Positions 1,069 through 4,463 of a stretch of 64,000 bases of DNA are shown here, piece by piece. The first letter of the stretch is position 1, and every line of letters begins with the position of its first letter. The stretch lies in the NCBI RefSeq assembly GCF_001544755.2, contig NZ_FCOF02000010.1:62001-126000 (forward strand). The letters are read 5' to 3'. The translations under genes were made by a program, and so were the position numbers. The stretch comes from Caballeronia catudaia (lineage in GTDB: Bacteria > Pseudomonadota > Gammaproteobacteria > Burkholderiales > Burkholderiaceae). The notes under the pieces are model-generated. The model was not told the DNA's origin and ran no database searches. It worked only from the letters and a program-made list of their open reading frames with translations.

Positions 1069-2370
1069 TCAGAACGCGTAGTAGGGACCAGCGCCCGCGG
1101 GCGTCGGCCGCCCGGAGAGCGCCGTAAACACGCGGCGTCCGTAGAAGAAGGGCAGACCCCAGTCGAAGTAGCCGCTGGCCGGTCCGGCGAGATTGTCGAA
1201 GGCGAAGTTGCCTGTGCCGAACAGCGCCGTCGATTGTGCGACCGTGAAGCTCACCGCGCTTTGCGCGCCGCTCGATGAGAGGATCGTCGCGGCGATTGTT
1301 TGCGGCGTCGACGGGCAGTACCACGCGCCGCAGCGGGCGAGTGTCGTCGATGGAAAGAAGACGCCGTTCGATCCGCTGTCGATGAAGCTCGATCCATATT
1401 GGCTGCCGCCGAACGCCGTCGTCACGTAACCGGTCGTCGAGCTCGACTTGAGCACGATCGCGGAGCCGAGCAGATTGTTCGACTGCGAGCCGATGCCAAA
1501 TGTCATCGTTCCCGTCACCGACGATGCGCCGCCGTCCGGCACGTTCGGCAACTCGATCAGCACGCCGTTGTTGTCGGCGGCGAAGTTCGCGACCGGATTC
1601 GTCACCTGCCGGGCGACCGCAAGCGTGCTCGCGACGCAGTTGCCCGAGATGCAACTGTAATACCAGCGCGGCATCGCGGACGCCGCGCAGCCCGCGCCGC
1701 AGTCGGCCGTGAACGGCCCGACGCCAAGAATGCCGTTGCCGCGCAGCGACGACGCGCTGAGCATCGGCAGGCCGGACTCGGTACAGTCCTGCGCGGTGTT
1801 CGGCGCGGCGCTATCGGCGATCAGTTGCACGGACGTCGAACTCGCGACGTGGCCGGCCATATGGACATCGGCCGCGCGCACCGTACCCCACGTATAGCCC
1901 GAGCCGAACACCGCACATTCCGCGACGACAGCGTTCGTGCCGCTGCCCGCGACGAGCGGCAGCGCGATCGACGGATCGAGCGCCGACGCCAGCACCCGCA
2001 GCCCGTGCGAACCGGTATCGACCTGAATATCGTCGATCGTCTGACAGGTGCCGGTGCCGGGCACGCAGATCGTCACGCTGGTTCGCAGCATGTTGCGCGT
2101 GTTGGTGGACGTGCGGGTGACCTCGATCGTCTGGACGTTGGGCGTCGTCGACTGCGGCACGGTGGTGTCGGCGTCCGGCGCCGATGCCGATGGCGATGGC
2201 GCGCTCGCGGGCGCGGCGGCGCTCGCCGAAGCGGGCGCGCTTGCCGCCACGGGCGCGCTCGCTTGCGCTGCCGGCGCGGCGGAGCCGCCATTCGAGCCGC
2301 CTCCGCCTCCGCCGCAGGCTTGAAGCAATGCGCAGAGCGCGATCGTCGAGAGTAGGGCGCGTGTCGTCAT
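1069..2370 (-). CDS. DUF3443 lipoprotein with pepsin-like aspartic protease motifs
   Basis: A 433-residue predicted lipoprotein. A lipobox (LLQAC, Cys19) is followed by a Gly run and an Ala/Ser/Pro-rich linker to about residue 75, so the folded domain should be tethered to a membrane facing the periplasm. Family knowledge: DUF3443, common in Burkholderia and uncharacterised as far as I know. In the sequence I see VDTGSHGLRV at 117–126, NGILGVG at 212–218, FIDSGSNGVFFP at 329–340 and a C-terminal GLPFFYGRRVFTAL near 405–418. In the same order and spacing these match the first DTG, the DGILGLG segment, the second D(T/S)G and the terminal hydrophobic–Gly segment of pepsin-family (A1) proteases. 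I infer a two-lobed aspartic protease fold. The ATG at 2370 is chosen because the longer frame upstream lacks a signal peptide and overlaps the DUF2844 gene, which ends 10 bp away. Confidence 0.88.
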   Translation of the reverse strand: MTTRALLSTIALCALLQACGGGGGGSNGGSAAPAAQASAPVAASAPASASAAAPASAPSPSASAPDADTTVPQSTTPNVQTIEVTRTSTNTRNMLRTSVTICVPGTGTCQTIDDIQVDTGSHGLRVLASALDPSIALPLVAGSGTNAVVAECAVFGSGYTWGTVRAADVHMAGHVASSTSVQLIADSAAPNTAQDCTESGLPMLSASSLRGNGILGVGPFTADCGAGCAASAMPRWYYSCISGNCVASTLAVARQVTNPVANFAADNNGVLIELPNVPDGGASSVTGTMTFGIGSQSNNLLGSAIVLKSSSTTGYVTTAFGGSQYGSSFIDSGSNGVFFPSTTLARCGAWYCPSTPQTIAATILSSSGAQSAVSFTVAQSTALFGTGNFAFDNLAGPASGYFDWGLPFFYGRRVFTALSGRPTPAGAGPYYAF

Positions 2371-2380
2371 CGTTATTCTC

Positions 2381-2845
2381 CTACTCGATGTCCGTCGTGC
2401 TGACGCCCGCCGGCAGCGCGCTCGCGAGCCACGCGCGGCCGCTGAATTCGCGCAGCCGCACGCGGTTCTCGACGACGAGATCGCCGTGCGCGACGCGCGC
2501 CTTATGCAATCCGGCATCGCCTGCGGATGCGTTCGCGGCTTGCCGGAACGTTTCGAAATACGCGCCGAGCAGCGACTTGACATCCGCCATCGCGGGCCCG
2601 CGCCAGGAGATCGCGTAGACGTCGCCGTGCGAATCCATGTATTCACGCACGACGATGCCGTGCGCGTCGGTCGTTTCGTGATATCGCACGAGTCCGCCCT
2701 GATGAAGCTGAAGCACCACATCGCCCTGCGACGCGCTCCCGGTGCGCCCGGTCGCGCCGAGTTGCGCATGGACGGACGATGCCGTGCCAATCGTGAGGAT
2801 GGTCAGGCCGATGGCAGCGTAGTAAGGAATTCTGATTTTCTTCAC
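2381..2845 (-). CDS. DUF2844 exported protein
   Basis: A 154-residue protein with a signal peptide (KKIR n-region, hydrophobic core, cleavage expected after SSVHA near residue 27). The mature part matches DUF2844, a short uncharacterised family that travels with DUF3443 in Burkholderia. Start is GTG at 2845, with a GGAG ribosome site just upstream. It is the promoter-proximal gene of a two-gene operon with the DUF3443 lipoprotein (10-bp gap). Its function is unknown; from position and export I infer that it acts with, or on, the lipoprotein. Confidence 0.87.
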   Translation of the reverse strand: MKKIRIPYYAAIGLTILTIGTASSVHAQLGATGRTGSASQGDVVLQLHQGGLVRYHETTDAHGIVVREYMDSHGDVYAISWRGPAMADVKSLLGAYFETFRQAANASAGDAGLHKARVAHGDLVVENRVRLREFSGRAWLASALPAGVSTTDIE

Positions 2846-3251: not shown

Positions 3252-4463
3252 ATGACAGATTTTCGTGTAACCAAGCGGATGGCTGCGCTGTTCGCCGTGG
3301 CTGGAATCGTGGCGGGATGCGGGTCGTCCAATCCCAATGCGTTCAATTACAAGAGCGATCAGCGTTCGAAGCAGGTGTCTCTCGCCGTGCCGCCGAATCT
3401 GCTCGACGAAGCCGCCGACCAGCGTTCGCTGCCGCCGCAGGGCGGTCAGGCCACGCTGTCCGATCTGCAGCAGATCCAGAAAGTCGCACCGAACGCGCCC
3501 ACGGTGGTTCCTCCGGTGTCGGGCATGCACGTTCAGCGCGACGGCACCGAGCGCTGGCTCGTCATCGACAACAAGACGCCCGATCAGGCATGGCCGCAGG
3601 TCCGCCGCTTCTGGCAAGAGCAGGGCTTTCTGCTCGTCGTCGATCAGCGCGACAAGGGCGTGATGGAAACGGACTGGAACGAAACCCATCCGCAGATTTC
3701 GGATGGCCTGATTCGCGATACGCTCGCGAAGGCGACCGGCAACTCGTACGTGACCGCCGAGCGCAACAAGTACCGCACGCGCCTCGAAGCGGCGCCCAAT
3801 GGCGGCACCTACGTGTTCATCAGCCAGAAGGGTATGCGCGAGGCGCTGACGGGCGTGAACAACGATTCGAGCCAATGGCAGGCACGTCCGAACGATCCGG
3901 CGCTCGAGAACGAATACCTGAAGCGGCTGATGTCCTCGCTCGCTCTTGCGGATCAACGCGTCGCTTCGAGTGGCGCAACGCCGCTCGACACGCCGGCTCC
4001 GGCTGGCAGCGCCGGCGCGCAGGGCGGGAAGGGCGGCGACGCGAAGGCGGCATCGGTCGCGGCGCAGAACGTCGCGCTGGCGGGGAATTCGCCGATCAGA
4101 AACGAGGTCGTGCCCGAGGCCACGACGTCGCAACTGACCTTGCCGGAAGCTTACGACCGGGCGTGGCTGCGTGTAGGTATCGCGCTCGATCGCGCCAATT
4201 TCACGGTGGACGACCGCGATCGCAACAAGGGCGTCTATTACGTGCGCTATGTGGACCCGACCGACAAGTCATCGGCGGAACAGGGTTTCTGGAGCCAGGT
4301 TTTCCACGGCCGCAAGGAAATGAAGGCGAAGCAGTACCAGATCAACGTGCGCGCTGTCACGGAGCAGCAGACGCGCGTCGCGATCGTCGACGACAAGGGC
4401 GACGTGGACGCGTCGCCGCAAGCGCGGCAGATCATGGCCTTGCTCGCCGACCAGATCAGCTGA
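3252..4463 (+). CDS. bamC: Outer membrane protein assembly factor BamC (NlpB)
   Basis: A 403-residue lipoprotein of the BAM complex, which folds beta-barrel proteins into the outer membrane. The N-terminus has a signal peptide and lipobox IVAGC (Cys23). After it comes the unstructured segment of BamC that contacts BamD, including LAVPPNLLDE, and then two helix-grip domains (about 85–200 and 280–400) joined by an Ala/Gly-rich linker. It is longer than E. coli BamC (about 344 residues), mainly because of that linker near residues 235–280. It is transcribed alone, with its own promoter and a terminator at 4491–4519. The dapA gene that precedes nlpB in enterobacteria is absent here. BamA lies at 57305 in the same window. 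Confidence 0.93.
   Translation: MTDFRVTKRMAALFAVAGIVAGCGSSNPNAFNYKSDQRSKQVSLAVPPNLLDEAADQRSLPPQGGQATLSDLQQIQKVAPNAPTVVPPVSGMHVQRDGTERWLVIDNKTPDQAWPQVRRFWQEQGFLLVVDQRDKGVMETDWNETHPQISDGLIRDTLAKATGNSYVTAERNKYRTRLEAAPNGGTYVFISQKGMREALTGVNNDSSQWQARPNDPALENEYLKRLMSSLALADQRVASSGATPLDTPAPAGSAGAQGGKGGDAKAASVAAQNVALAGNSPIRNEVVPEATTSQLTLPEAYDRAWLRVGIALDRANFTVDDRDRNKGVYYVRYVDPTDKSSAEQGFWSQVFHGRKEMKAKQYQINVRAVTEQQTRVAIVDDKGDVDASPQARQIMALLADQIS

Follow-up and report, generated by a model that had tools for sequence, protein, structure and literature searches.

A DUF3443 lipoprotein encoded beside DUF2844 is a probable two-lobed, pepsin-type aspartic peptidase

The DUF2844-DUF3443 locus

The stretch of Caballeronia catudaia DNA that we analysed (64,000 nucleotides; the window) carries a minus-strand gene for a DUF3443 protein, preceded on the same strand by a gene for a DUF2844 protein. 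The window protein scores 439 bits against the DUF3443 model (PF11925), above the curated cut-off of 25; the Pfam label of the family is 'unknown function', and no NCBIfam family scored above cut-off for this protein. Relatives on five plasmid records are named 'DUF3443 family protein' (three) or 'DUF3443 domain-containing protein' (one), or are unannotated (one). The terms DUF3443, PF11925 and DUF2844 were absent from the open-access full text searched, a scope that takes in few subscription papers or bioRxiv preprints. The genes and the features assigned to them are as follows.

2381..2845, minus strand: gene for a DUF2844 protein, 154 aa, GTG start, signal-peptide-like N terminus (PF11005, E 4.5e-33)
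2378..2383, minus strand: TAGGAG, in which the DUF2844 stop codon (TAG, 2381-2383) is merged with the likely DUF3443 ribosome-binding site (read from the sequence)
1069..2370, minus strand: DUF3443 lipoprotein gene, 433 aa, ATG start (PF11925, E 1.4e-131, residues 75-433)
2314..2370, minus strand: putative signal peptide and lipobox-like site, residues 1-19, LQAC with Cys19, Gly at +2 (read from the sequence)
2149..2313, minus strand: glycines (GGGGGG after Cys19), then an Ala/Ser/Pro-rich linker, residues 20-74
2008..2022, minus strand: N-lobe D-loop VDTGS, residues 117-121, with the proposed catalytic Asp118 (aligned with pepsin 31-35)
1876..1917, minus strand: flap-like hairpin CAVFGSGYTWGTVR, residues 152-165, with Phe155 in the place of pepsin Tyr75 (conservation, pepsin-master alignment)
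1717..1737, minus strand: N-lobe G-loop NGILGVG, residues 212-218 (conservation, profile alignment, V117-V217 coupling)
1474..1509, minus strand: putative middle strand TMTFGIGSQSNN, residues 288-299, aligned with pepsin SVVLLGGIDSSY (profile alignments)
1369..1386, minus strand: C-lobe D-loop FIDSGS, residues 329-334, with the proposed catalytic Asp331 (conservation, profile alignments)
1126..1161, minus strand: putative C-lobe G-loop and last strand WGLPFFYGRRVF, residues 404-415 (G405 in 219/219, F329-D403 coupling)

Genes for an alpha/beta hydrolase and a carboxymuconolactone decarboxylase (plus strand, 21-1003) converge on DUF3443, and a gene for an NlpB-type lipoprotein (3252-4463) diverges from the pair; DUF2844 and DUF3443 therefore make up a two-gene unit of their own. 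The pepsin-type reading of DUF3443 had been put forward in an earlier note, which stated no strand for the frame (it is minus). The segments that it listed, VDTGS at 117, NGILGVG at 212, FIDSGS at 329 and GLPFFYGRRVF at 405, were all located in the frame, and the spacing of 213 residues that it gave for Asp118 and Asp331 is correct. So is its description of a lipobox and a long Ala/Ser/Pro linker: LQAC ends at Cys19, and the linker runs to about residue 74.

Conservation and lipid anchoring in the DUF3443 family

A first genome scan gave at least 78 DUF3443 loci, from which 74 open frames, together with the window protein, were taken for alignment and 17 fragments were excluded; the alignment as stored holds 68 of these 75 sequences, seven rows of Caballeronia-type loci being omitted. 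Addition of loci from genome searches and of 107 fetched stretches brought the number of matched stretches to 254. Once 21 partial ones had been dropped, 233 full-length DUF3443 sequences remained, of which 219 are distinct; all counts 'of 219' refer to these.

The motifs are conserved beyond what chance would give: Asp118 is present in 217 of 219 sequences, and Gly213 and Gly216 of NGILG, like Asp331, in all 219. Lack of conservation of the two Asp residues across the family had been named as an outcome that would tell against the pepsin-type reading, and both are invariant or nearly so. In the N-lobe motif and just after it, Thr119 (218), Ser121 (217), Gly123 (219) and Arg125 (217) are equally well kept; the glycine of the first DTG, Gly120, is found in only 170 sequences (Ala in 36, Glu in 8, Met in 5), a variation beyond the sight of the earlier note. 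The C-lobe motif reads Ser332 in 180 sequences (Thr in 39), Gly333 in 218 and Ser334 in 213. In the flap region the counts are 218 for Cys152, 212 for Phe155 (Tyr in four), 216 for Trp161 and 219 for Gly162. The N-lobe hhG element corresponds to ILG at 214-216, with its invariant Gly216; in that of the C lobe the residue before Gly405 is hydrophobic in 219/219, yet position 403 is Asp in 200. Asp223, Tyr237, Pro259 and Gly405 are present in all 219 sequences and Pro407 in 213. The remaining cysteines are Cys102 and Cys109 (219 each), Cys196 (190), Cys224 (211), Cys228 (207), Cys240 (217), Cys245 (216), Cys347 and Cys352 (211 each). They would pair, with Cys152, as 102/109, 152/196, 224/228, 240/245 and 347/352, four of these pairs being close in sequence; five such pairs would fit an oxidising compartment of the envelope.

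When a relaxed pattern of our own was applied, 216 of the 219 relatives showed a lipobox-like site, and 190 did so under a stricter pattern that misses the window's own LQAC; the sites were read in stop-to-stop frames with start codons left unchosen. One of the three misses of the relaxed pattern (L032) starts at the end of its locus. Lipid anchoring looks general across DUF3443, judging by these patterns. Gly occupies position +2 in 190 of the 216 lipobox-like sites. In E. coli, Gly at +2 sends a lipoprotein to the outer membrane, and by this rule DUF3443 proteins would be sorted there. Three of the proteins (L063, L043 and L098) have long N-terminal extensions between the lipobox and the DUF3443 domain, in which we read Ig-like-looking repeats of the type L..NNGGD..QP.GQTC.

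Profile similarity to bacterial pepsin homologues

Bacterial members of the Pfam family Asp (PF00026) were gathered from genomes (7/398, 14/148 and 2/150) and filtered for at least 340 residues, a D-T/S-G motif and a GILG-type motif, which left 15 distinct proteins for a profile of A1 homologues; L082, L083 and L084, over the Pfam cut-off but without a GILG-type motif, were among those excluded. When DUF3443 was compared with this profile by hhalign, a probability of 58% and a P-value of 9.7e-5 (for a single comparison) were obtained over 198 columns. The alignment begins at the first Asp motif and runs beyond the second, with DTG, DSG, GILG and the hhGG segment all lined up. None of 150 A1 profiles with shuffled columns (mean 15.4, maximum 25.9) reached the score of 41.8, nor did any of 150 with shuffled 10-column blocks, in which most short motifs survive (maximum 38.6); the reversed profile scored 13.4. 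An unrelated family, DUF2844, gave 0.28 against A1 and 0.49 against DUF3443. As a yardstick, four PE-PGRS_C-like proteins (three of them matching that Pfam family, below its cut-off) gave a P-value of 1.7e-4 against the same A1 profile.

With pepsin as the master of the A1 profile, the P-value was 2e-4 over 185 columns, and in our reading of this alignment Phe155 lies opposite Tyr75, Arg125 opposite Trp39, Gly162 opposite Gly82 and Val217 opposite Leu123. Pepsin as a lone sequence gave P 0.077 against DUF3443, with the C-terminal segment two residues out of the expected register. Shallow first profiles of 3 and 4 sequences had been weak (P 0.0037 and 0.024); the result used here came from the deeper ones. 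The global mode of hhalign returned a meaningless match of 6 columns, and the full-length path to the C terminus, being forced at zero confidence, was rejected as evidence.

Each half of DUF3443 was also compared with A1 on its own. The N half gave P 2.3e-5, and the C half (270-433) P 0.0051 over 28 columns around the second motif, neither score being reached in 100 shuffles. Masking the first Asp motif lowered the full score to 26.9 and masking the second to 39.1 (0/100 shuffles each); with both masked it fell to 24.3, reached by 1/100 shuffles. Residues 340-433 alone were not recognised by the A1 profile (28/100 shuffles reached their score), and the C-lobe G-loop and last strand (404-415), which the profile alone does not pick out, is the weakest of our assignments. 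When the two halves of DUF3443 were aligned with each other, an internal repeat of only 25 columns emerged (P 0.011, 0/100 shuffles), and such a repeat on its own does not prove the second lobe.

Single sequences were searched as well. An HMM of the A1 set was run with filters off on the 219 DUF3443 proteins, on the same 219 sequences reversed and on 2606 further ORFs from these loci. It matched at E <=1 13 DUF3443 proteins, no reversed sequence and six of the further ORFs; five of the six belong to loci that supplied the A1 set, and the remaining one (L092) encodes a PE-PGRS_C-like protein. With the limit at E <=10 the numbers were 50, 0 and 10. The best E-value of any DUF3443 protein was 0.011, short of E 0.01. 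Conversely, the best non-members found by the DUF3443 HMM among the 2606 ORFs were an A1 peptidase (L081, E 0.26) and a PE-PGRS_C-like protein (L090, E 0.61), followed by two motif-less ORFs in third and fourth place and, in fifth and sixth, by the A1 peptidase that is present in both L085 and L088. The E-values of such searches are individually weak; it is the ranking that carries the weight. Against PDB sequences, neither the window protein nor a profile of 68 relatives found a match up to E 10, and no curated peptidase family matched DUF3443 above its cut-off. For PF00026 in particular, the window protein gave no match and 1/68 members matched at E 0.056, short of the curated cut-off.

Residue coupling

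Couplings were computed by two methods, which agree, from the 219 sequences (effective number 136) over 356 columns. According to an excerpt of PMC11313796, a D-loop is paired with a G-loop in each psi-loop of pepsin. Among the top 100 pairs in DUF3443, V117-V217 links the D-loop to the G-loop of the N lobe (pepsin 31-123 by alignment) and F329-D403 does the same in the C lobe. Each psi box thus holds one pair against 0.11 expected (p 0.1 each, or 0.05 each with the top 50), and boxes slid by 20 to 60 positions held no pairs in the top 100.

The middle and C-terminal strands complete the interlobe sheet of A1 enzymes. This sheet is six-stranded in A1 enzymes, with one strand from the N terminus (excerpts of PMC12730222 and PMC3640475). 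Pairs in the top 100 that join N-terminal, middle and C-terminal strands of DUF3443 are I82-I272, T81-T290, V79-T290, L274-Y410, T290-R413, E273-R413 and I82-Y430. The central-sheet box contains 11 of the top 100 pairs against 3.9 expected (p 0.0018), or 12 against 3.9 by the other method (p 0.0005). This count is not sharp, because middle-strand windows slid by 20 or 40 also held 0 to 6 pairs against about 2.7 expected, the shift of +20 giving 6; and all box p-values flatter, because the boxes were drawn in part with the list of pairs already in view. Read in this way, the couplings fit the psi-loops and interlobe sheet that a pepsin-type fold would have.

Variation of the first motif and distribution of the family

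Parsimony on a FastTree tree explains the loss of the first DTG glycine in 49/219 sequences by six changes, five of them forced by starred branches. The replacements are spread over several genera: 14 DTA and 16 DTG copies in g1 (the window's genus), 14 DTA and 1 DTG in g6 (a Burkholderiaceae genus), 8 DTA and 46 DTG in g5, 7 DTE, 5 DTM and 9 DTG in g231, and 1 DTE and 7 DTG in g220. The window's genome itself holds one DTGS copy, the gene at 1069-2370, and one DTAS paralogue, which is located at G000:C88:325733-326806 (L002, L106). All 49 glycine-less copies retain Asp118, Thr119, Ser121, Asp331, Gly333 and Ser334. For DTE and DTM we know of no precedent. For Ala there is one: the histo-aspartic protease, with the motifs HTASS and DSATS, is active, and it is the C-lobe Asp that is regarded as essential (excerpt of PMC11313796). 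As the C-lobe Asp of DUF3443 never varies (219/219), DTA copies may, by this analogy, be active.

DUF3443 was found in 10/349 Pseudomonadota genomes, in 90/200 sampled Burkholderiaceae genomes (10/25 genera there) and in 2/199 genomes of the phylum to which an acidobacterial MAG belongs, a count that includes this MAG. Among the matches listed, loci were also seen in Chromobacterium, Duganella, Myxococcales and one Spirochaetes MAG. Three Burkholderiaceae genomes (G322, G730 and G790) have 6, 7 and 6 DUF3443 matches, a paralogue expansion in genus g5.

DUF2844 as a partner of DUF3443

Of 215 testable copies of DUF3443, 206 have DUF2844 directly upstream, on the same strand and no more than 900 bases away; four further copies had too little upstream sequence. 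DUF2844 is also present in 49/49 of the copies without the first DTG glycine. Among the nine exceptions, DUF2844 is further upstream in L098, downstream in L043 and on the other side of the middle gene in L063, a locus in which three DUF3443 genes were seen with one DUF2844 gene between the second and the third. No DUF2844 was found in the loci of the other six (L040, L045, L047, L054, L055 and L079, with little sequence before the frame in L055), all of them from Myxococcales and Gammaproteobacteria metagenome assemblies. The only two copies of 219 without the N-lobe Asp (L045 and L055, GTG and NTG, both from Myxococcales) are among these six; the coincidence is a hint only, because the six are of narrow origin and L055 has just about 0.5 kb upstream.

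Coupling between the two proteins over 206 pairs was highest for F220 and DUF2844 alignment column 128, where Arg is common (7.37, a single pair), against tops of 5.5, 6.4 and 6.1 in three partner shuffles. Other recurring gene neighbours, among 12 clusters listed, occur in at most 6/42 loci, each within one lineage. In Myxococcales MAG loci L037, L049, L051, L053, L062 and L071 an ORF lies 13-100 bases from DUF3443 that is prepilin-peptidase-like by sequence reading alone.

DUF2844 is most likely a dedicated partner of DUF3443, either a substrate or a separate prosegment/inhibitor. A single dedicated substrate, or the prosegment of a zymogen-type enzyme made as a separate protein, would each yield such pairing. 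The gene pair is the most useful addition to the earlier note.

Proposed mechanism and alternative explanations

Taken together, DUF3443 is probably an exported, lipid-tethered aspartic peptidase of the two-lobed pepsin type (clan AA), with DUF2844 as its dedicated partner. Conservation, profile similarity, coupling, the lipobox-like site and the pairing of the genes are what we observe; the fold, catalysis, outer-membrane sorting, the role of DUF2844 and the five cysteine pairs are what we infer. Catalysis in pepsin-type enzymes proceeds through a water molecule that two Asp residues hold and activate for attack, in a cleft covered by a flap. By the mechanism that we propose, DUF3443 would be exported and held at the membrane by its N-terminal lipid and a flexible linker. 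Asp118 of the N lobe and Asp331 of the C lobe would form the catalytic dyad that activates water, and the hairpin of residues 152-165 would close over the cleft as a flap. Phe155 and Arg125 would stand in for the usual flap pair of Tyr75 and Trp39. The hydrogen bond between the latter two, described for the pepsin flap in an excerpt of PMC12730222, cannot form in DUF3443 because both partners are replaced, and the near-invariant Trp161 may take over together with Arg125. In each lobe the Asp loop would pack on the glycine loop of that lobe to give a psi-loop, and the sheet between the lobes would be made up of strands from the N terminus, the middle and the C terminus. DUF2844, translated immediately ahead of DUF3443 and apparently exported too, would serve as substrate or as prosegment/inhibitor.

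The fold proposed in the earlier note is supported by profile similarity with its controls, near-invariance of the Asp residues and coupling. Proteolysis is not to be stretched over all of DUF3443: 49/219 members carry DTA, DTE or DTM. In DTGS members such as the window protein, peptidase activity is likely. More tentatively, and with the balance of our judgement leaning against it, DUF2844 and DUF3443 might be a two-gene pepsin-type system of the Gram-negative envelope, with a prosegment or substrate secreted separately and lineage-wide DTA, DTE and DTM variants, some of them partner-needing pseudoproteases.

The lobes could also have the pepsin fold and carry out no proteolysis, serving as a binding scaffold, for example for DUF2844 or an envelope ligand. 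Non-catalytic members of the fold, plant xylanase inhibitors and EDGP, are on record (excerpt of PMC11313796), and the scaffold would suit the presence of Ala, Glu or Met for Gly120 in 49/219 copies that all still have DUF2844, the Phe and Arg at the Tyr75 and Trp39 equivalents, and the loss of Asp118 in two Myxococcales copies. We regard it as unlikely: the same 49 copies keep Asp118, Thr119, Ser121, Asp331, Gly333 and Ser334, needless for a pure scaffold, the histo-aspartic protease is active despite Ala in both motifs (PMC11313796, excerpt), and Phe occupies the flap position in A1 homologues of Marinomonas and Sinorhizobium too (excerpt of PMC2761423).

Much less credible is a clan AA protein that is not pepsin-like, in which a single-domain retropepsin-type unit is joined to an unrelated second half. 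Weak Asp_protease_2 matches in 7/68 members (best E 0.0041) and the concentration of profile signal in the N half point that way, but the second Asp is invariant, the A1 alignment crosses both motifs, the second A1 motif is recovered with the C half on its own (P 0.0051, 0/100 shuffles), and couplings tie N-terminal, middle and C-terminal strands together. Least probable of all, convergent motifs on an unrelated fold would agree with the lack of a match to any curated peptidase family or PDB sequence and with ten conserved core cysteines arranged unlike pepsin's, but hardly with the couplings or with the reversed, column-shuffle, block-shuffle and unrelated-family controls.

Bacteria are thought to have few two-lobed aspartic peptidases: in the excerpted text of PMC2761423, a 2009 survey of >960 prokaryote genomes reports that seven bacterial genomes encode A1 homologues and that these all lack a signal peptide. 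A lipid-anchored pepsin-type DUF3443 would, if true, widen the known range of the fold and give DUF3443 and DUF2844, both of unassigned function, a testable joint role. The natural DTA, DTE and DTM variants offer a means to ask how much of the DTG motif catalysis requires.

Comparison with known aspartic peptidases

Retropepsin-like bacterial peptidases (APRc, and the Pseudomonas ROSE proteins, which are secreted according to the title of PMC12239564) share the clan AA D-T/S-G motif with DUF3443. A retropepsin-type chain carries a single motif and forms dimers (excerpt of PMC11313796), whereas DUF3443 has two motifs in one chain.

The PE-PGRS C-terminal domain (PecA, PE_PGRS16; PF20729) is an exported bacterial two-lobed aspartic peptidase with DTG and DSG motifs (excerpt of PMC6819658), and in export and motifs DUF3443 resembles it; secretion route and domain make-up differ. 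Among the matches listed for PF20729, the DUF3443 gene is the sole match in four genomes, G249 (one of 5 matching genomes of 299) and G406, G429 and G426 (of 41), and the model picks the DUF3443 gene in only 3/41 genomes that had supplied DUF3443 loci. The curated cut-off was reached by none of the 3/68 members that matched (best E 1e-5) and in 0/41 genomes, and a rescan found no match at E 0.1 in three DUF3443 proteins listed by the genome search or in P0005. Against a profile of the four PE-PGRS_C-like proteins DUF3443 was weak (P 0.013). The proteins L090, L091, L092 and L094, below the PE-PGRS_C cut-off, have two motifs (D-T/S-G-S-T-G and DTGV) and signal-like N termini; they come from other Pseudomonadota genomes, including a small Burkholderiaceae genome, and may be another unnamed group of two-lobed aspartic-peptidase-like proteins.

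The best profile match that we found for DUF3443 is to the bacterial A1 homologues of MEROPS (shewasins and kin, PF00026), with which it shares the order of motifs: two D-T/S-G, flap, GILG, hhGG and last-strand motif. By model score it falls outside Pfam Asp, and we would file it as a separate clan-AA-like family that probably works like A1. The Asp expected of both motifs is there (Asp118 in 217/219, Asp331 in 219/219), and so, in the window protein, is the Gly of both (in the family, Gly120 in 170/219 and Gly333 in 218/219); the flap Tyr75 of A1 is replaced by Phe155 in 212/219, with Tyr in 4. If the GLP register is right, DUF3443 has Leu at the place of pepsin Asp303, like A1 homologues of Shewanella and Colwellia (excerpt of PMC2761423). 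Unlike the seven A1 homologues given without signal peptides in that excerpt, DUF3443 looks exported and lipid-anchored, and it is further set apart from A1 by its ten conserved core cysteines, its Phe and Arg for Tyr75 and Trp39, and its DUF2844 partner.
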